Source: Aurantimonas endophytica (GTDB taxonomy: Bacteria; Pseudomonadota; Alphaproteobacteria; Rhizobiales; Rhizobiaceae). Taken from it: 64,000 bases of DNA. A program made the position numbers and the translations under genes. This document shows positions 29,970-38,613 of the stretch, piece after piece (within the stretch, counting starts at the first letter, position 1; the number at the start of each line of letters is the position of its first letter). The notes under the pieces are model-generated. The model was not told where the DNA came from and ran no database searches. It was given only the letters and a program-made list of their open reading frames with translations. Where the stretch lies: contig NZ_JACIEM010000004.1 in assembly GCF_014196845.1 (NCBI RefSeq), forward strand, positions 496,001 through 560,000, given 5' to 3'.

Positions 29970-30551
29970 TTACCGGACCTTCTCGAAAGCCGCGACGCGG
30001 AAACGCGCCGTCTGCTGCACAACCCGCAGCGGGGCGACAGCGGCAAACCAGCGCTCCGTCGCCGCCACAGCCTGGACCGGCCGAATGGCTGCGTCGTCGA
30101 AGTCCAGCACGTGTTGCAGGAAGACGATCCGCCCGCCCGGCGCCAGGGCCGCGTGCAGCTTCGGCAGCAGCAGGGCGAGATCGTTGGGTCTCAGATAATA
30201 CAGGATCTCCGAGGCGACGATCAGGTCGAACGGTCCGCACGGCATGTCGCGCGGCAAGAGCGCGTGACGAAACGTGATCCGGGCATTGCCGGCATTGCGG
30301 CGGCGGGCGGCTTGCAGTGCCGTGGTCGCGGCGTCGACCGCCAGCAGGCGGCGGCAGATACGCGCCAGGAGCCGCGTCGTCTCCCCATTGGCGCAGGCGA
30401 GCTCCAGCCCGCGGCCATAGTGGCGGTCGCCGCAGGCCTTGAGGAGCACGTCCCGCTTCCACGCCTCGAACGGGGAGGTCGCGTAGTTCCAGGGGTCGGG
30501 ATCGGCGGCGAACTTCGCCTCGAAGCCGTTTGCGTCGATCACCCGTCGCAT
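29970..30551 (-). CDS. Class I SAM-dependent methyltransferase, NodS-like
   Basis: A 193-residue methyltransferase. Motif I is GLELACANGETTRLLA (around residues 48-63), the motif II acidic residue is in LLAVDAATTAL, and FDLIVASEILYYL plus LAPGGRIVFLQHV are motifs post-II and III. The NodS-like family is the nearest match: small N-methyltransferases acting on deacetylated sugars in Nod-factor synthesis. Its start overlaps the upstream PIG-L deacetylase gene by 13 bases, so it is the last gene of the four-gene cluster. Methylation of the amino group exposed by the deacetylase would fit, but this is inference. Confidence 0.82.
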   Translation of the reverse strand: MRRVIDANGFEAKFAADPDPWNYATSPFEAWKRDVLLKACGDRHYGRGLELACANGETTRLLARICRRLLAVDAATTALQAARRRNAGNARITFRHALLPRDMPCGPFDLIVASEILYYLRPNDLALLLPKLHAALAPGGRIVFLQHVLDFDDAAIRPVQAVAATERWFAAVAPLRVVQQTARFRVAAFEKVR

Positions 30552-31252
30552 GGGCGCAGATACTTCTCGACGGGGCCGGTCAGCCGCTCGATCGTCTCCG
30601 CCGTCAGCCGGAAGCCCTCCGGGTCGTCGGTGATCAGGTCGCTGGTCTGGGAGACATGCGCGGCGACGGCCAGGCGCTTCGCGTCGGCGGCTGCGCCGAT
30701 ATCGAAGGCGATCTCATCCATTTCGCCGGGCCGTGGCGCGTCATCCGCCTCGCCCAGCTCGTCGAGCCAGATCGCGTATTCCAGCGTCGGCGGCCGCGGA
30801 TGCCGCTGCGCCAGGACTTCTGTCACCAGCCGCCAGCTGTCGCGATGATCGCAATGCGGGTCGCGACGCCAGGGCAGCAGGACGAGGTCCGGATCGAAGC
30901 GGTCCACCAGATTGGCAGTGGCGGCTGCCGCGGCGCGCCAGGCGGGTGAGCCGTGCGGCGGCATCGCGGCATCCTGCAGCCGCAGGAACGTTGTCGCTGC
31001 CGGATCGAGGCCGAGGGCAACGAGTGCGGCGTGCGCCTCGGTCTCGCGTTGCGCGGCAAGCCGCTCGCGCGGCCATTGCATCGACTTGCGATGCGAGGCA
31101 CCGCCATCGGTGACGAAAAGCGTGTGCACCTGCCGGCCAAGCCGCGCAAGGCTCGCCGCCAGCCCGCCGCAGCCGAGCGTCTCGTCGTCCGGGTGGGGCG
31201 CGACGATCAGGACGCGTTCCGCCGTCACCGTTTCCGGTCGAAGGAGCATCAT
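30539..31252 (-). CDS. PIG-L-family deacetylase
   Basis: A 237-residue zinc-dependent deacetylase of the LmbE/PIG-L family. APHPDDETLGCGG (residues 18-30) provides the His, Asp-Asp-Glu zinc and catalytic residues. DPHCDHRDS supplies the second zinc His and the conserved HxxH. Members remove acetyl from N-acetylglucosaminyl conjugates (MshB in mycothiol synthesis, BshB in bacillithiol, PIG-L in GPI anchors). Two tandem ATGs start the gene, overlapping the acyl-CoA-dehydrogenase-like stop by four bases. PIG-L domains fused to this kind of methyltransferase are known in databases, supporting a joint function with the next gene. Confidence 0.9.
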   Translation of the reverse strand: MMLLRPETVTAERVLIVAPHPDDETLGCGGLAASLARLGRQVHTLFVTDGGASHRKSMQWPRERLAAQRETEAHAALVALGLDPAATTFLRLQDAAMPPHGSPAWRAAAAATANLVDRFDPDLVLLPWRRDPHCDHRDSWRLVTEVLAQRHPRPPTLEYAIWLDELGEADDAPRPGEMDEIAFDIGAAADAKRLAVAAHVSQTSDLITDDPEGFRLTAETIERLTGPVEKYLRPCDG

Positions 31253-32355
31253 GCCGGCCGGCCCTTGTCCGGCCCGGCGAGGCCCGGCTGCCATTCGCCT
31301 TTGGCCACTGCGACACCCGCGGCGCGGAGCGCCCCGTCCGGATTGGGCTGGCGCAGATAGGTGCGCAGGTCCCGCACCAGCCGTTCGAGCCGGTGCGGCG
31401 CGATGAAGCCGCCGGCGCCGACGGCGCGCTCGGCTTCTTCCAGCACGGTCATCGCCGCGGCCTCGACCGCCGAGCGGGTGGTGTTGGCCGTCGCGGTGAG
31501 CCGCGCTGCCGCCGGGCCTTCGCCACCGGCGAGCACCGCTTCGTCCCAGGCTTCCGCCGCCCGGTCGAGCCAGGCGTAGCCGGTCTCGACGGCGATGCCC
31601 ATTCGAGCGATGCGATGGGCTTGATAAGGGTCCTCGGCGCGTCCGGTGCGCACGAGATGCTCGAGCGCGACATCGAACACGGCGTGCATCCCGCCGACAT
31701 GGACCGCCGCGAACCGGATCGCCCCGCCGCCGAACCAGGGCTCGGCGACATAGACGCCGGGCGCCCCGAGAAACCAGTCCGGCGCCGGCTCGATCCCGGT
31801 AAAGTCGACGAGATGGCTGCCGGAGGCGCGCATGCCGAGCGGCTTCCACCAGCTGCGATCGACGGGCAGGCCTTCCAGCGGCACCATCAGCATCAGGCGG
31901 CCGGCCTCGTCCGGCACGGTGACGATGGCGCGCGACAGGCCGTCGACACCGGAGGCGAAGTTCTTGCCGCCAGAAAGGACGCCGGCTTCCCACCGAAGTG
32001 GCGCGTCCGGCATGTCAGTGTTCCAGACGCCGAACAGCCGGCCCGAGCGGGCCTCGGCCAGCCATTCGCTTCGTTGGGACGCGGTGCCGTGCTGGTCGAC
32101 GAGGATCATCGCGTTGACGTGGCCCTCGAAGATCCGCCCGGTGCTGAGGTCGCCGCGTCCGACCGCCGCCAGAACGCGTAGCAGCGAGCCGGTTTCGCCG
32201 GGGCCGATCGGCGGGTCGCCGACGACGCCGTAGGCGGCGAGCTCGGCAAAGCCGGCGGCCGGAAACGCTTCCTCCGTGTCCGCTTCCGCGACACCGGCGG
32301 CAATGGCCCGGCTCAGCGCCTCGAGGCGCTCATGCATCGGTGCTTCATGCCGCAT
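31249..32355 (-). CDS. Acyl-CoA-dehydrogenase-like flavoprotein, non-canonical C-terminus
   Basis: A protein of 368 residues (ATG at 32355) with the acyl-CoA dehydrogenase fold. An N-terminal helical domain leads into the middle FAD/substrate region FGVWNTDMPDAPLRWEAGVL, then SGGKNFASGVDGLSRAIVTV and WWKPLGMRASGSHLVDFTGI. The C-terminus reads LERLVRDLRTYLRQPNPDGA, without the 'Y-E-G-T' type loop that carries the catalytic Glu of true acyl-CoA dehydrogenases. The Arg-Asp-x-Arg pattern resembles flavin-dependent oxygenases of the same fold. It is coupled to glycosyltransferase (overlap) and PIG-L genes. A TTG at 32364 and an ATG at 32337 are alternative starts. Confidence 0.78.
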   Translation of the reverse strand: MRHEAPMHERLEALSRAIAAGVAEADTEEAFPAAGFAELAAYGVVGDPPIGPGETGSLLRVLAAVGRGDLSTGRIFEGHVNAMILVDQHGTASQRSEWLAEARSGRLFGVWNTDMPDAPLRWEAGVLSGGKNFASGVDGLSRAIVTVPDEAGRLMLMVPLEGLPVDRSWWKPLGMRASGSHLVDFTGIEPAPDWFLGAPGVYVAEPWFGGGAIRFAAVHVGGMHAVFDVALEHLVRTGRAEDPYQAHRIARMGIAVETGYAWLDRAAEAWDEAVLAGGEGPAAARLTATANTTRSAVEAAAMTVLEEAERAVGAGGFIAPHRLERLVRDLRTYLRQPNPDGALRAAGVAVAKGEWQPGLAGPDKGRPA

Positions 32356-33487
32356 GGGCGGCAACCGTCGTTTCGTCGATCAGCCGCGCCACCGCCGCAA
32401 TGGCCTCTTCGACCGGCACGGTGGAAGGCGCATCCGGCTCGTCCGGCGCATGACGTTCGATCAAGGCTTCCGGCGCGAGCAACCAGCCGCCATCGTCATG
32501 CAGATCGGCTGGCCGCAGCGCGAGCTGGTCGGCCAGTGCGGCAATCTCCAGCTTCCCCTTTGCCTCGGCAAGGCCGCGTAGCAGCCTTCGCCGCAGGGCG
32601 CGCTGGCGCACGTGCTTCGGCGCCTCGACGAGATGCGGTCTGCAGGCGGCTTCCGCAGCGATCCAGGATTTCAGGCAGTCCGCCATGCCGCCGCGGGCCC
32701 GCCCGAAGGTCCGGGCCGAGACGGTGACGACGACGTCCGGATCATGACGCAGCCGAAAGCCGGCAGCCCGAACGCGCGAGACGAATGCGAGGTCCTCGCG
32801 TTGCGGCAGAGCCGGAAGACCGCCCACCGCGTCGTAGACATCCGCGCGAACCGCAAGGCTGGCACCGGTATGGTCGTGATGCCGCGGCCAGGGATCATGG
32901 GGCAGGGGGTCGAGTGTCGCCGTCAGCCTGTCGCAAAGCCCGGCATAGGCCGCATGGCGCTGTGCGCGCCGCCGGAAGCCGTCGCCCAGCAGCGCTTCCT
33001 CCGCCTTGTCGCCGACGATCAGCCCGCCTACCAGATCGGCACCGGCGGCGATCGAGCGGAGATTGGCGTCGATCCAGTCCGGATGCGGCGCGCCGTCGGC
33101 ATCGGTCGTGAGGAGCACCGTCCGGTCCGGATCGGCCGCCCAGGACCGCGCGGTTTCCAGCGCCAGCCGCCGCGCCGTGCCGGCATTGGCCTGCAGCGAT
33201 GGAAACTCGACGACGAGGACATGCAGGCAAATCTGGGGATGCAGCCGTCCCGCGGCCGCCAGGACATCGGCGGACATATCGCTGCAATTGTTGAGGACGA
33301 TGACGACGTCCAGCGATCGGCGTCGATCCGCCAGCCACGACTGCGCTGCCAGCGCCGCGACGAGGCGCGGCAGGCGCTCGGCTTCGTTCCTGGCCGGTAT
33401 CGCGACGATGGGATGCAGAGCGTTGAAGACGACTTGCTGGCTGGAGTGCCGGAGGAGCCGGTGACGTCCTTGCTGCATCTCGCGCAT
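32345..33487 (-). CDS. Family 2 glycosyltransferase
   Basis: A 380-residue GT-A-fold glycosyltransferase. [20 protein letters not shown] is the nucleotide-binding start and [16 protein letters not shown] the second strand. [19 protein letters not shown] holds the metal-binding DxD, and [21 protein letters not shown] supplies the ED acceptor motif. No membrane helix is seen, so it is probably soluble and makes a small glycoside rather than a polymer. It is the first gene of the cluster and overlaps the flavoprotein gene by 11 bases. Its promoter should lie in 33488-33750, shared with phosphoketolase. Confidence 0.88.
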
Positions 33488-33643
33488 CTGCGACCCCTCA
33501 CATTCACCAGCCTGTCACGCCGATGGCGCACTTCTGTGTAGCGCTCGACAGGACAGGAAGCGACGGCGCCATCCCTGGTTCCGCAACGCCGCGGCTCATT
33601 TCGTCGCAGCGACGGAGACGGGGTCGGTTGATGCGTCGGGCGC

Positions 33644-33657
33644 CTGATCCAGATCAA
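33644..33657 (+). promoter_or_regulatory. FNR/FnrL-like box upstream of phosphoketolase
   Basis: CTGATCCAGATCAA matches TTGAT-N4-ATCAA at nine of ten positions. It lies 94 bp upstream of the phosphoketolase ATG in the 263-bp divergent spacer. Low-oxygen activation of acetyl-phosphate production would make sense; the glycosyltransferase operon on the other side could also respond. Confidence 0.6.
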
Positions 33658-33750
33658 CGACGACGCGTGCATCGCGAAATAGTCGTCGGAACGACAGGCG
33701 GCAGCGCAATCTCGCCGCGCCTCGAAGCCAGAGACGGAGACTTCCCGCCC

Positions 33751-36129
33751 ATGACCGATCATGACTTCGAGCTCATCGACCGCTACTGGCGCGCCGCGAA
33801 CTATCTCTCGGTCGGGCAGATCTACCTTCTCGACAACCCGCTGCTGCGCGAGCCCCTCGCAACCGCGCACGTCAAGAAGCGGCTGCTCGGTCACTGGGGA
33901 ACCACACCCGGCCTGAACTTCGTCTACGCCCATCTGAACCGGATCATCCGCGATCGCGATTTGTCGGTGCTCTACATCTGCGGGCCCGGCCATGGCGGCC
34001 CCGGCATGGTGGCGAACACCTGGCTCGAGGGCACCTACAGCGAGATCTATCCGGACGTGCCGCAGAACGCCGCCGGCATGCACAAGCTCTTCCGCCAGTT
34101 CTCATTTCCCGGTGGCATTCCGAGCCATGCGGCGCCCGAGACGCCCGGCTCGATCCACGAGGGCGGCGAACTCGGCTACGCGCTGGCGCATGCCTATGGC
34201 GCCGTGTTCGACTCGCCCGACCTGATCGCCGCCTGCGTCATCGGCGACGGCGAGGCGGAGACCGGCGCGCTCGCGGCCTCCTGGCATTCCAACAAGTTCG
34301 TCAATCCGCGCGTCGACGGCGCGGTTCTGCCGATCCTCCACCTCAACGGCTACAAGATCGCCAACCCGACGATCCTCGCCCGCATGCCCCCCGAGGAACT
34401 GCGCTCGCTGCTCGTCGGCTACGGCCACGAGCCGATCTTCGTCGAGGGCAACGATCCGAGGACGATGCATCGGCTGATGGCGGCGGCCTTCGACGAGGCC
34501 TTCGACAAGATCGCGGCGATCCAGGCGGCGGCGCGGGAAGGCGGCGACAACGAGCGGCCGCGCTGGCCGATGATCGTCCTGCGTTCGCCCAAGGGCTGGA
34601 CCGGGCCGGACGTCGTCGACGGCAAGATGGTCGAGAATTTCTGGCGCTCCCACCAGGTCCCGGTCTCGGGGGTCCACAGCGATCCGGCCCATCGCCAGAT
34701 CCTGGAGGACTGGCTGCGCTCGTACCGGCCGGAGGAACTCTTCGCCGAGGACGGCAGCCTGCTGCCCGACCTGGCGGCGCTGGTGCCTGACGGTGACCGG
34801 CGCATGGGGGCCAATCCGGCAGCCAATGGCGGCCGGCTGCGGATCGAACTCGACCTGCCGTCCGTCGACGCCCATGCCGTCGCCGTGCCGACGCCGGGCG
34901 GGTCGCGCGGCGAGGCGACGCGGGTGCTCGGCGCCTATCTGCGCGACGTGATGGTGCGCAACAAGGATGCGCGTAACTTCCGTCTGGTCAGCCCGGACGA
35001 AGCGTCGTCGAACCGCCTCGACGCGGTGTTCGAGGTGACCGAGCGCGCCTGGATGGAGCGGATCGAGCCCTACGACGTGCATCTCGCCGACGAGGGCCGC
35101 GTGATGGAGATCCTCAGCGAGCATCTCTGCCAGGGCTGGCTGGAAGGCTACCTGCTGACCGGCCGGCACGGCATGTTCGCCTGCTACGAAGCCTTCATCC
35201 ACATCGTTGACTCGATGTTCAACCAGCACGCCAAATGGCTGAAGGTGACCCGCGATATCGAATGGCGCGCGCCGATCGCCTCGCTGAACTATCTCCTCTC
35301 GTCGCATGTCTGGCAGCAGGACCATAACGGCTTCAGCCATCAGGATCCGGGCTTCGTCGATCTCGTTGCCAACAAGAAGGCGGACGTCGTCCGGCTGTAT
35401 TTCCCGCCCGACGCCAACACGCTGCTCTGCGTCGCCGACCACTGCCTCGGCACCTACGACCGGGTGAACGTCATCGTCGCCGGCAAGGCGCCGGCGCCGC
35501 AATGGCTGACCATGGAGGAAGCCAAGCGCCACTGCGAGGCGGGCATCGCCAGCTGGCCCTTCGCCTGCAATGTCGCCGACGGCGAGACGCCCGACGTGGT
35601 CATCGCGGCCGCCGGCGACGTGCCGACGATCGAGGCGCTGGCGGCGGTGGACCTGCTGCGCCGGAAGATGCCGAAGCTGCGCATCCGTTTCGTCAACGTC
35701 GTCGACCTGATGGCGCTGCAGCCGAAGGATCGCCACCCTCACGGCATCGACGACGCCGATTTCGACGTGCTGTTCACCACGGACCGGCCGGTGATCTTCG
35801 CCTATCACGGCTATCCGTATCTCATCCATCGGCTGACCTATCGGCGCGCCAACCACAACAATATCCACGTCCACGGCTACCAGGAGGAGGGCACCACCAC
35901 GACGCCCTTCGACATGACGGTGCTCAACGAACTCGACCGATTCCACCTCGCCATCGCGGCAGTGCGTCGTCTGCCGGACCATGGCGGCGAGGAGGGCCGG
36001 GCGGCGATCCGGTATTGCGAGAAGCGGCTGGCCGCGCACCGGCTCTACGTCGAGGCGGAGGGCGTCGACATGCCGGAAATCCAGGACTGGGGCTGGCCCT
36101 ACGCGACGGCGGCCGATGCCGGCGACTGA
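33751..36129 (+). CDS. xfp: Phosphoketolase (xylulose-5-phosphate/fructose-6-phosphate)
   Basis: A 792-residue thiamine diphosphate enzyme that splits xylulose 5-phosphate (and possibly fructose 6-phosphate) with phosphate into acetyl phosphate plus an aldose phosphate. [19 protein letters not shown] and [20 protein letters not shown] are family signatures. GDGEAETG (165-172) starts the ThDP motif. [15 protein letters not shown] is the pyrimidine/substrate-side motif. Length (about 790) is standard. I chose the ATG at 33751, which gives [20 protein letters not shown]. Acetate kinase follows after 30 bp, completing conversion to acetate and ATP. Confidence 0.96.
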
Positions 36130-36159
36130 CGGCTCAATCCCCGACCGGACGGCCGGCTG

Positions 36160-37356
36160 ATGGCGGATCTGGTCCTCAGCCTCAATGCCGGCTCGTCCAG
36201 CGTCAAGTTCGGGCTGCATCGGGTCTCCGAGGCGGCGACGATGCCGGAAGCGGTCGCACGCGGCGCGGTGAAGGCCGAGGCGGGGGCGTGGCATCTGTCG
36301 GCCATGGGCTCCGACGGAACGGCCGGCCTCGACGAGACGGTCGCCGGCGAGCCGGACGATCTCGCGCCGGCGCTGGCGCGCTTGCTCGCCTGGGCGGAGG
36401 AGGCGCGCGGGTCGGGCAGCTTGCTCGCCGTCGGCCACCGCGTCGTCCATGGCGGGCCCGACTTCGCCGACCCGGTGCGGCTGACCCCGGAGCGCATCGC
36501 GGCGATCGGCAGGCTGACGCCGCTCGCGCCGTTGCACCAGCCGCGCTGCCTCGCCCCGATCCGCGCTTTGACGGCCATCCGCCCCGATCTGCTTCAGACG
36601 GCATCCTTCGACACCGCCTTCCACCGGTCCCTCTCGGGCCCCGCCGCGCGCTACGGCCTGCCGCGGGCGCTGGAAGCGGAAGGGATCCGCCGATACGGGT
36701 TTCACGGCCTCTCCTATGATTTCATCGCAGGCCGGCTGGAAGTGCTGGAGCCGGGCAGCCCGGGCCTGAGGACCGTCATCGCCCATCTAGGCAACGGCGC
36801 CAGCCTGTGTGCCCTGAAGGATGGGCGGAGCGTCGACACGACGATGGGGTTCTCGGTGCTCGACGGGCTGCTGATGGGCACGCGCCCCGGTACGCTCGAC
36901 CCGGGCGTGCTCGTCTACCTGATGCGCGAGCACGGCTACGGGGCCGACCAGCTGGAGGAGATGCTCTATCACCGCTCCGGCCTTCTCGGGGTATCCGGCC
37001 GGTCGAGCGACATGCGCGATCTTCTTGGCGACGACAGCGCCGAAGCGGGAGAGGCCGTGGACCTCTTCGTCACCCGCGGGGCGCAGCAGATCGCAATGAT
37101 GGCGACGAGCCTCGCGGGTCTCGACCGGCTGGTCTTCACCGGCGGGATCGGCGAGCACCAGCCGGAGATCCGCGCGGCGATCGGCCGGCGGCTCGCCTTT
37201 CTGGGTGTCGTCTTTGACCCGGCTGGCAACGACGTGGGTGACGGCCGGATCAGCGCCGACAGCAGCCGCGTAACCGTTCTCGTCGTGCCGACGGACGAGG
37301 AGGCGGTCATCGCGCGCGACGCCGCTGCCATCTGCCGCGCCGAGGGATATGAATGA
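36160..37356 (+). CDS. ackA: Acetate kinase
   Basis: A 398-residue ASKHA-fold kinase converting acetyl phosphate and ADP to acetate and ATP. The N-terminus MADLVLSLNAGSSSVKFGLH is the first signature. RYGFHGLSYDF is the second, with HLGNGASLCALKDGRSVDTT and FTGGIGEHQPEIRAAI as the ATP-binding motifs. Catalytic Arg and His contexts (GHRVVHGG; FDTAFHRSL) are present. It directly follows phosphoketolase, a common pairing in which the bypass yields ATP by substrate-level phosphorylation. Confidence 0.96.
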   Translation: MADLVLSLNAGSSSVKFGLHRVSEAATMPEAVARGAVKAEAGAWHLSAMGSDGTAGLDETVAGEPDDLAPALARLLAWAEEARGSGSLLAVGHRVVHGGPDFADPVRLTPERIAAIGRLTPLAPLHQPRCLAPIRALTAIRPDLLQTASFDTAFHRSLSGPAARYGLPRALEAEGIRRYGFHGLSYDFIAGRLEVLEPGSPGLRTVIAHLGNGASLCALKDGRSVDTTMGFSVLDGLLMGTRPGTLDPGVLVYLMREHGYGADQLEEMLYHRSGLLGVSGRSSDMRDLLGDDSAEAGEAVDLFVTRGAQQIAMMATSLAGLDRLVFTGGIGEHQPEIRAAIGRRLAFLGVVFDPAGNDVGDGRISADSSRVTVLVVPTDEEAVIARDAAAICRAEGYE

Positions 37357-37473
37357 CGGATCATTGACTTGCGCGAGGGAGCTTCGCTCCCGGTCGAGCG
37401 TTGGTTGAGAAGGAGCGTCGGATTTCCGGCGCATGGTTCGCCGCCTCGGCGGACGATACCCGAGGAGCCAACA

Positions 37474-37827
37474 ATGACCCTTCGCCGATTCTCCCTGCCG
37501 CTCGCGGCCGTTTGCCTGTCCTTTGCCGCGGGCCCTGCCTTGGCCCAGAGCCAGCCGTTGCCCGATGCCCCGCCGGAGATCCCCGCGCCGGAATCGACCG
37601 CGCCCGACATGCCGCTCGAGGACGATCCCTGCGCGCCCGGCGCCGCCCCGAGCGAGGGCGCCGCCGGGCAGGACGACCTGACGATGCAGTTGCAGGATTG
37701 CGAGAGCGTCCTGACCCCGCCGACGACGGGAGACACGGGCATCGAGGCGCCGGCGCCGGATGCCGATCCCGGCACCACGCCGGTGATCCCGCCGTCCGAC
37801 CTGCCGGCGCAGCAGTCGCCGCTGTAA
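37474..37827 (+). CDS. Small secreted Pro/Asp-rich protein
   Basis: A 117-residue protein with a clear signal peptide (MTLRRFSLPLAAVCLSFAAG, cleavage after ALA near residue 25). The mature part is rich in Pro, Asp, Glu and Ala (DAPPEIPAPESTAPDMPLED) and contains two Cys (DDPCAPGA and LQDCESV), which could form a disulphide. CGAGGAGCC precedes the ATG at 37474. I recognise no domain. It lies 117 bp after ackA and 96 bp before the isomerase, so operon membership is possible but uncertain. Confidence 0.65.
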   Translation: MTLRRFSLPLAAVCLSFAAGPALAQSQPLPDAPPEIPAPESTAPDMPLEDDPCAPGAAPSEGAAGQDDLTMQLQDCESVLTPPTTGDTGIEAPAPDADPGTTPVIPPSDLPAQQSPL

Positions 37828-37923
37828 GGCAGACGGCCTCGACAAGGCGGCCAGCCCCCGCCATGGTCCTGCCCGGCGGTGCCCGGGCGGGCGTCGCCGA
37901 AGTGCGGCGGTGGAGAGACGGGC

Positions 37924-38613
37924 ATGAAGCGTTCGCGGGTCAACGAAATCTTGCAGGAGGGCGACGCCTTCATCCGCTCCTTCGGCTACGTCATGCCACC
38001 CTTCGCCTATTTCGCGCCGGACGAGATGCAGCGGCGGCGGCACGAACTGGCCGGCATCGTCGAGGCGCGGCTCGGCTGGGACATCACCGATTACGGCCAG
38101 GGTCGCTTCGACGAGCTCGGCCTGTTCCTGTTCACCGTGCGCAACGGCAGGGCCGAGGATCTCACGCGCGGCAGTGGCATGCTCTACGCCGAAAAGATCA
38201 TGATCAGCCGCCAGGAGCAGCTATCGCCGATGCACCGCCACGTGGTGAAGGCGGAGGACATCATCAATCGTGGTGGCGGCAAGCTGGTCCTGGAGCTGTT
38301 CACGTCAGACGCGAGCGGCGATCCCGACCCGGAGGCGGAAGTTTCGGTGATGACCGACGGCATCTCGCGCACGCTGCCGGCCGGCGGGCTGCTGTCGCTC
38401 GATCCGGGGGAGAGCGTCACGCTGCTGCCGGGCGTCTGGCACGCCTTCTGGGGCGAGGGTGCGGACGTGCTGATCGGCGAGGTGTCGACCGTCAACGACG
38501 ATCTGACCGACAACGTCTTCCGCGAGCCGATCGGCCGCTTCGCCGCCATCGAGGAGGACGAGCCGCCGCTTCATCTGCTGGTCTCCGACTACGAGCGGCT
38601 GCTGACGCGCTGA
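37924..38613 (+). CDS. D-lyxose isomerase-like cupin
   Basis: A 229-residue cupin-fold sugar isomerase of the D-lyxose ketol-isomerase family. Family features are MHRHVVKAEDIINRGGGKLV (metal-ligand His pair and the invariant E-D-I-I-N-R-G-G-G) and LPGVWHAFWGEGADVLIGEV (further His and Glu ligands). Enzymes of this size convert D-lyxose to D-xylulose and D-mannose to D-fructose with Mn. The start at 37924 follows GGAGAGACGGGC. Product D-xylulose, once phosphorylated, is the substrate of the phosphoketolase just upstream, which may explain the location. Confidence 0.82.
   Translation: MKRSRVNEILQEGDAFIRSFGYVMPPFAYFAPDEMQRRRHELAGIVEARLGWDITDYGQGRFDELGLFLFTVRNGRAEDLTRGSGMLYAEKIMISRQEQLSPMHRHVVKAEDIINRGGGKLVLELFTSDASGDPDPEAEVSVMTDGISRTLPAGGLLSLDPGESVTLLPGVWHAFWGEGADVLIGEVSTVNDDLTDNVFREPIGRFAAIEEDEPPLHLLVSDYERLLTR

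Follow-up and report, generated by a model that had tools for sequence, protein, structure and literature searches.

A four-gene unit of Aurantimonas endophytica that recurs across bacteria and may encode a dedicated amino-sugar pathway

Four overlapping genes on the minus strand of a 64,000-nucleotide stretch of Aurantimonas endophytica (contig NZ_JACIEM010000004.1; the whole stretch is hereafter the window) raise the question of whether a glycosyltransferase, a flavoprotein, a deacetylase and a methyltransferase serve one purpose, and what they would make together. The unit begins with a soluble GT2 glycosyltransferase (GT; 380 aa, 32345..33487), followed by a flavoprotein of acyl-CoA dehydrogenase (ACAD) fold, probably a group D monooxygenase (368 aa from ATG, 31249..32355), a PIG-L (LmbE) de-N-acetylase (237 aa, 30539..31252) and a NodS-like S-adenosylmethionine-dependent methyltransferase (MT; 193 aa, 29970..30551). 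The original prediction, made from the letters of the window, had described overlaps of 4-13 bases and a soluble GT2, a PIG-L deacetylase, a NodS-like methyltransferase and a flavin enzyme, and on both counts it holds. The GT and ACAD-like genes share 11 bases (32345..32355) if the latter starts at ATG 32355, its alternative possible starts being TTG 32364 and ATG 32337; the ACAD-like and PIG-L genes share the four bases ATGA (31249..31252), and the PIG-L and MT genes share 13 (30539..30551). Pfam agrees with the family assignments, giving Glycos_transf_2 at 1.9e-9, Acyl-CoA_dh_1 at 4.8e-9 with Acyl-CoA_dh_N at 5.7e-5, PIG-L at 3.1e-26 (92.8 bits, gathering score 28.2) and NodS at 3.4e-16 (60.1 bits, threshold 24), and no NCBIfam model scored above its cut-off with any of the four proteins. 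No membrane segment is indicated in them, the GT included (highest 19-residue hydropathy mean 1.47).

The four genes are no chance grouping, and it is near certain that they form one pathway. Among 121 genomes sampled from the window's family, the ACAD-like and GT genes occur in an identical set of 20 (Fisher p 2.8e-23, kinship ignored), all of which also hold PIG-L and MT matches. PIG-L matches extend to five other genomes (G002 and four at 1e-25 to 1e-29) and MT matches to seven (G002 and six at 1e-29 to 1e-38); the MT match of G398 scores level with the weakest quartet members. A strong ACAD-like match (E <=5.5e-44) was found in 14 of 60 related genomes, the window's own excluded, and 13 of these carry all four genes together; the fourteenth, G002 of the same genus (locus L049, G002:C34), keeps PIG-L and MT, with only fragments of GT and ACAD. 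As seen in a scan of genome contigs, where 80 loci were retained from at least 512 confirmed relatives, all four genes are present in 56 loci (flanks up to 9 kb), with the order ACAD-PIG-L-MT maintained throughout and the GT on the same strand in 22 and the opposite strand in 34. Methylobacterium or Methylorubrum account for 17 of the 24 incomplete loci, some of which stop at a contig edge, and seven searched genomes from the 18 loci lacking PIG-L all hold a family PIG-L elsewhere (7/7, E <=1.2e-72). In addition, the distance matrices of the four proteins correlate (r 0.84-0.94, 51 loci), and a 1.2-Mb genome (G418) retains all four genes, its GT distant from the other three (C1:178940-181277 and 946951-948003) and the quartet genes accompanied by a GT4, a GT28-like and a second GT2 gene. 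This gene-neighbourhood check, which the original prediction had proposed, finds all four genes in each of the 20 family genomes with the ACAD-like gene and in 56/80 loci, and chance clustering is ruled out by the co-occurrence in the family genomes.

This co-occurrence, together with the fusions, the deacetylase replacement and the intact motifs described below, gives good support to a dedicated pathway that proceeds stepwise through glycosylation, de-N-acetylation, N-methylation and a flavin step. The stepwise building of a glycoconjugate, as first predicted, is supported in part, and the flavin-dependent oxidation within it is better read as the work of a group D oxygenase. Our preferred reading, held tentatively and at somewhat less than an even chance, is a four-step amino-sugar pathway with N-oxygenation that yields a stress protectant. 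The quartet would be a self-contained cytosolic pathway in which the GT2 enzyme attaches an N-acetyl amino sugar, probably N-acetylglucosamine (GlcNAc) from UDP-GlcNAc, to a small acceptor; the PIG-L enzyme would then strip the acetyl group, exposing an amine, the NodS-like enzyme would N-methylate it, and a group D flavin monooxygenase would turn it into an N-hydroxy (hydroxylamine or nitrone) form, supplied with reduced flavin by a general reductase of the cell. The product may protect against oxidative, desiccation or stationary-phase stress. What we observe are the genes, their linkage, the motifs, the fold, the missing glutamate and, in part of the range, the repeated catalase and LigD neighbours; the donor, the acceptor, the step order, the N-oxygenation and the biological role are what we infer. 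The GlcNAc donor, the acceptor and the position of the last step are unproven, and the protectant role, read from gene neighbourhoods only, is plausible.

Beyond what had been predicted, the set spreads far past Alphaproteobacteria and has catalase and DNA-repair genes as neighbours elsewhere. Among the matches listed are Aureimonas, Aurantimonas, Methylobacterium, Hymenobacter and other Bacteroidota, and cyanobacteria, as well as one Sphaerobacteraceae, one Pyrinomonadaceae and one Puniceicoccaceae record, the phyla being those we presume from the record titles. The distribution is patchy, at 5/289 genomes of a class-wide sample. Plasmid copies amount to 56 records and add Deinococcus, Rubrobacter, Nostoc, Sphingomonas and others; 24 of these 56 were inspected, and all four genes are visible in 17 of the 22 annotated regions, whose gene tables are incomplete. 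Several ACAD-like copies occur per Methylobacterium genome, as in sp. J-088 (L085, L111, L119) and E-065 (L089, L109), some without partner genes. Four ACAD-like proteins of Deinococcus have annotated lengths of about 750-790 residues (L033:6543-8882, L180:6603-8966, L188:6642-8885, L189:6579-8927); of these L033 was scanned, and Pfam matches nothing in its first ~400 residues. At the Deinococcus radiodurans locus no GT was detected. Two Deinococcus plasmids also carry a GT and a UDP-galactopyranose mutase gene (glf) after the quartet (L180:12833-13984, L189:12733-13881), which hints at galactofuranose.

Regarding the first enzyme, both the Pfam GT2 domain and the DxD motif are present, and the TDAD metal motif (D129, D131) and the ED pair (E231, D232) are invariant in 33/33 family rows. 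The predicted model is confident (pLDDT 92), and its structural relatives are the GT-A enzymes PcManGT, AvpGT, WrtF and TarP, which do not settle the donor or the acceptor. In part of the range, further GT genes of the GT4, GT28-like and second GT2 kinds accompany the quartet (Pedobacter L094, Sphingobium L182, Novosphingobium L185 and L191). In the family sample the second GT2 occurs in 9/20 quartet genomes versus 2/101 others (p 6.8e-7), and in the loci scanned it is adjoined by a sucrose-phosphate-synthase/phosphatase-like (SPS-like) gene, which was found in 8/20 family quartet genomes (L048:1129-3261; G009, G027, G029, G030, G373, G404, G413, G417), with 0/121 matches over the curated cut-off. 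The genes of this extended module may use or extend the quartet product. It is also possible, albeit rather unlikely, that the quartet decorates a larger surface or storage oligosaccharide, where several GTs would build the chain and the quartet would supply a terminal amino sugar that is deacetylated, N-methylated and oxidised, comparable to the tailoring of a chitin oligomer by NodB and NodS. The additional GT4, GT28-like and GT2 genes, the enrichment of the second GT2 and its SPS-like neighbour are consistent with such a chain. However, the quartet also occurs without them, since no second GT2, GT28-like or SPS-like gene was found in the window genome at the thresholds used, and 11/20 quartet genomes likewise have neither second GT2 nor GT28-like gene. 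Some plasmid loci have transporter genes close by, of the MFS type in L032, L034, L178 and L180 and of the RND efflux type in L178 and L179, but none is constant beside the quartet across the 22 annotated plasmid regions, and the window quartet itself has no membrane segment, which also counts against this reading.

Regarding the two middle reactions, the PHxDDE and HxDH metal motifs of the PIG-L enzyme are invariant in 29/29 rows, and the nearest solved structures to its profile are diacetylchitobiose deacetylases (8bgn, 3wl4; 1.4e-23), followed lower by BshB-type enzymes and MshB. Diacetylchitobiose deacetylase serves chitin catabolism in archaea, whereas the quartet enzyme is read as biosynthetic. 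The MT carries an invariant DPW...E..K signature (27 rows), and its nearest solved structures are 4isc (4.1e-47) and NodS 3ofj (1e-30); against the NCBIfam nodulation NodS equivalog it reaches 69.6 bits, below the cut-off of 300. Fusions between the two, which the original prediction had cited, were found: the deacetylase and METHYLTRANSFERASE (PIG-L and MT) are a single protein in 8 loci, four in the window's own family (L047, L048, L051, L052) and four (L083, L094, L095, L125) that we presume from their record titles to be Bacteroidota. In Rubrobacter, the ACAD-like gene has no adjoining PIG-L and is instead preceded by a polysaccharide deacetylase (Polysacc_deac_1, 3.6e-26), and a search of that plasmid for the family PIG-L found none. 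In Nod factor synthesis, which resembles the quartet in having a GT2 (NodC), an amino-sugar deacetylase (NodB) and NodS, N-methylation takes place only once deacetylation is done (PMC5080398). The fusions, the Rubrobacter deacetylase and the NodS order together support deacetylation followed by N-methylation at the same nitrogen, and an amine is likely freed and then methylated. Unlike the Nod system, the quartet uses PIG-L and not a NodB-type deacetylase (Rubrobacter excepted), has an additional flavoprotein and is hosted mostly by non-rhizobia; neither the acyltransferase NodA nor the chitin synthase NodC is in the four-gene window unit, and the GT matches no chitin-synthase model of Pfam or NCBIfam. 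In three cyanobacterial loci the MT is fused to an HAD phosphatase domain (L112:3465-4706, L118:10915-12156, L128:7496-8785), which hints at a phosphorylated intermediate. A role in phage defence was also considered and rejected, as PADLOC matches the MT only (mad2 6.5e-16, residues 31-165), which is read as a shared methyltransferase domain.

The proposed biological role derives from the neighbourhoods, where catalase, LigD, Ku and other proteins were searched by tblastn against 121 ACAD-like loci, the window excluded (~116 distinct, five places being held twice). Heme catalase was found in 13 of these loci, corresponding to 11 distinct places: Sphingomonas FARSPH, two Aurantimonas, the 1.2-Mb genome, S. 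parapaucimobilis, Sulfitobacter W002, Sphingobium RAC03, Novosphingobium P6W, Sphingomonas gentR, N. resinovorum and Paracoccus sediminicola; in Deinococcus AJ005 it stands at the edge of the stretch and was left out of the count. From 77 genes in 121 family genomes, ~0.0024 catalases per locus and thus ~0.3 in total would be expected, so that the probability of at least 11 (n = 119 used) is 1e-14, or 1.1e-5 when only five lineages are counted, the background being that of one family. Two heme catalases of the large-subunit type are immediate neighbours of the quartet: in Aurantimonas L042 (3999-7170) the catalase frame and the script-assigned GT start overlap by 11 bases, and in the 1.2-Mb genome (L143:4674-7981) the catalase and ACAD-like genes are divergent. 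Roseivivax has an adjacent manganese catalase, a different catalase family, and Hansschlegelia L072 a match to it nearby (1.4e-24). LigD was found in 11/121 loci and Ku in 3/121; seven of the LigD loci belong to Methylobacterium or Methylorubrum, and there a gene for the LigD phosphoesterase domain directly precedes the ACAD-like gene. At the genome level, a heme catalase gene is present in 20/20 quartet genomes versus 47/101 others (p 1.6e-6, kinship ignored); the KatG control (PF00141; 33/121 at E 1e-40, including 5/20 quartet genomes) is unusable, as its threshold cuts the score range. That catalase and DNA-repair genes adjoin the quartet in part of its range suggests that its product helps cells to withstand oxidative stress or drying.

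Concerning the flavoprotein, residues R74, E77, G78, H79, N81, W170, R335 and Q336 are invariant in 37 rows. The position of the isovaleryl-type catalytic glutamate is occupied by G211 (37/37), and that of the MCAD type by Q336 (37/37) or P337 (34 P, 3 A), the choice hinging on one gap; thus, the acyl-CoA dehydrogenase glutamate is absent at all three positions in 37/37 members. The 15 comparators from related genomes comprise eight with the MCAD-type glutamate, five of the isovaleryl type and two monooxygenase-like, and the W170 column is common to the family and only those two. A true acyl-CoA dehydrogenase is accordingly rejected, the catalytic glutamate being missing throughout the family and present in 13/15 comparators. 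The family profile matches the solved structures of DszC (3.4e-30) and MsuC (7.4e-26) ahead of the first ordinary acyl-CoA dehydrogenase (4u83, 2.6e-22), and aligns S135 and W170 with S163 and W205 of DszC. An ACAD fold that lacks the glutamate and lies nearer to DszC-type enzymes, by a modest profile margin, points to a group D flavin monooxygenase, which the protein probably is, and oxygenation is likelier than dehydrogenation. Group D enzymes include N-hydroxylases (PMC6165268), and it is plausible that the oxygenation falls on nitrogen. In Rubrobacter, a pyridine-nucleotide-disulphide-type oxidoreductase adjoins the flavoprotein unit.

Several observations weigh against the proposed N-oxygenation and protectant role. 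In the family profile, several ordinary dehydrogenases (2.6e-22 to 1e-16) rank above the sugar nitrososynthases and N-oxygenases (2.4e-16 to 8.5e-15), and the window protein alone matches an isovaleryl-CoA dehydrogenase first (1.6e-7), with DszC-type enzymes just behind. AlphaFold2 models the protein with confidence (mean pLDDT 94), and the first Foldseek match of that model is a putative acyl-CoA dehydrogenase by title; ranks 2-17 are monooxygenases (5z8t, MAB_4123, DszC, TdsC), and because dehydrogenases close behind reach similar TM-scores, the fold alone does not decide between the classes. DszC residues H92 and H391, which with S163 and W205 we take to be active-site positions, are replaced by the invariant R74 and Q336. 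The window unit lacks a flavin reductase gene, and the ACAD-like gene stands alone in 9/80 loci, eight of them Methylobacterium or Methylorubrum. As for stress, no catalase lies near the window quartet, the single one of its genome being on another contig; most of the 121 loci have neither catalase nor LigD, the catalase counts contain related sphingomonads, and the genome co-occurrence ignores kinship. Promoters of the EcfG general-stress type are enriched only weakly, too little to rely on: the strict pattern occurs in 2/91 upstream regions versus 0.29 expected, and in 26 Alphaproteobacterial regions GGAAC alone occurs 14 times versus 7.5 expected, with loosened patterns at 5 versus 0.4 and 3 versus 0.5.

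Alternatively, the ACAD-fold protein may act by dehydrogenation or oxygenation on a carbon or sulfur of the acceptor, and not on the sugar amine, with the rest of the pathway unchanged. The top profile matches, DszC and MsuC, are S-oxygenases (identity ~20%) and outrank the sugar N-oxygenases, and the residues surrounding the flavin differ from DszC at the two histidine positions. We regard this as unlikely, because the gene is tied to a deacetylase and a NodS-like methyltransferase, both indicating an amine. Moreover, N-hydroxylation has been described for enzymes of the ACAD fold (PMC6165268, PMC7347517). A related system is that of the nitrososynthases and N-oxygenases 3m9v, 3mxl and 4zxv, which we take to be KijD3, ORF36 and DnmZ acting on amino sugars; they likewise use an ACAD fold without acyl-CoA chemistry, but sugar nitrososynthases act on TDP-sugars in antibiotic pathways.

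Returning to the preferred amino-sugar pathway, its most specific form would have deacetylation, N-methylation and flavin N-oxygenation fall on one nitrogen, making a sugar-borne N-methyl-N-hydroxylamine (or a nitrone or nitroxide) that scavenges radicals alongside catalase. Such a product would be a new class of protectant, and both this chemistry and this function are speculative, with a low probability.

The original prediction had also likened the deacetylation to that of mycothiol or bacillithiol synthesis, where GlcNAc is moved to a small acceptor and then deacetylated by a PIG-L enzyme. The quartet shares this opening logic (MshA/MshB, BshA/BshB) and has a redox-stress neighbourhood, yet that it makes a low-molecular-weight thiol of this kind, or a precursor, is very improbable. 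Its GT belongs to GT2 and not GT4, its PIG-L falls far under the equivalog cut-offs (BshB1 56.8/182.5, BshB2 39.7/195.25, MshB 18.5/224.35 bits), and it has a methyltransferase and a flavin enzyme in addition; a methyl group on the amine would presumably hinder a later amide bond. No cysteine ligase is annotated beside the quartet in the 22 plasmid regions, whose tables are incomplete and beyond which no genome-wide search was made, and the likeness is not supported as far as a thiol is concerned. Lastly, the patchy spread and the plasmid copies would speak for a loose set of horizontally transferred genes that have no common product, a reading that is scarcely credible in view of the identical GT and ACAD genome sets, the kept gene order, the fusions, the correlated divergence and the retention of all four genes in the 1.2-Mb genome, even though the GT lies apart there.

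As for the surroundings of the unit in its 5.04-Mb genome, a radical-SAM gene lies downstream, and phosphoketolase, acetate kinase and D-lyxose isomerase genes of ordinary sugar metabolism stand beside it on the plus strand (33523-38613). No inverted repeats of at least 14 bases within 60 bases were found near the unit, and the GC of the region (0.66-0.72) is like that of its surroundings.

All four families are already known, and their combination and product are without description in the literature searched, most subscription journals being outside its coverage; the earlier statement that no characterised pathway is known to have this set is in agreement. That a four-enzyme pathway is conserved in several phyla, and persists in a genome of 1.2 Mb, argues for a product that is truly useful. 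Where the quartet physically adjoins catalase and end-joining repair genes, as it does in some of its hosts, the idea of a vague glycoconjugate becomes a testable hypothesis of stress protection. Should the flavoprotein indeed act as an oxygenase on a sugar nitrogen, such chemistry would occur outside antibiotic pathways, in ordinary surface-living bacteria, and an N-methyl-N-hydroxylamine protectant, if true, would be common to Deinococcus, Hymenobacter, Methylobacterium, desert cyanobacteria and sphingomonads.

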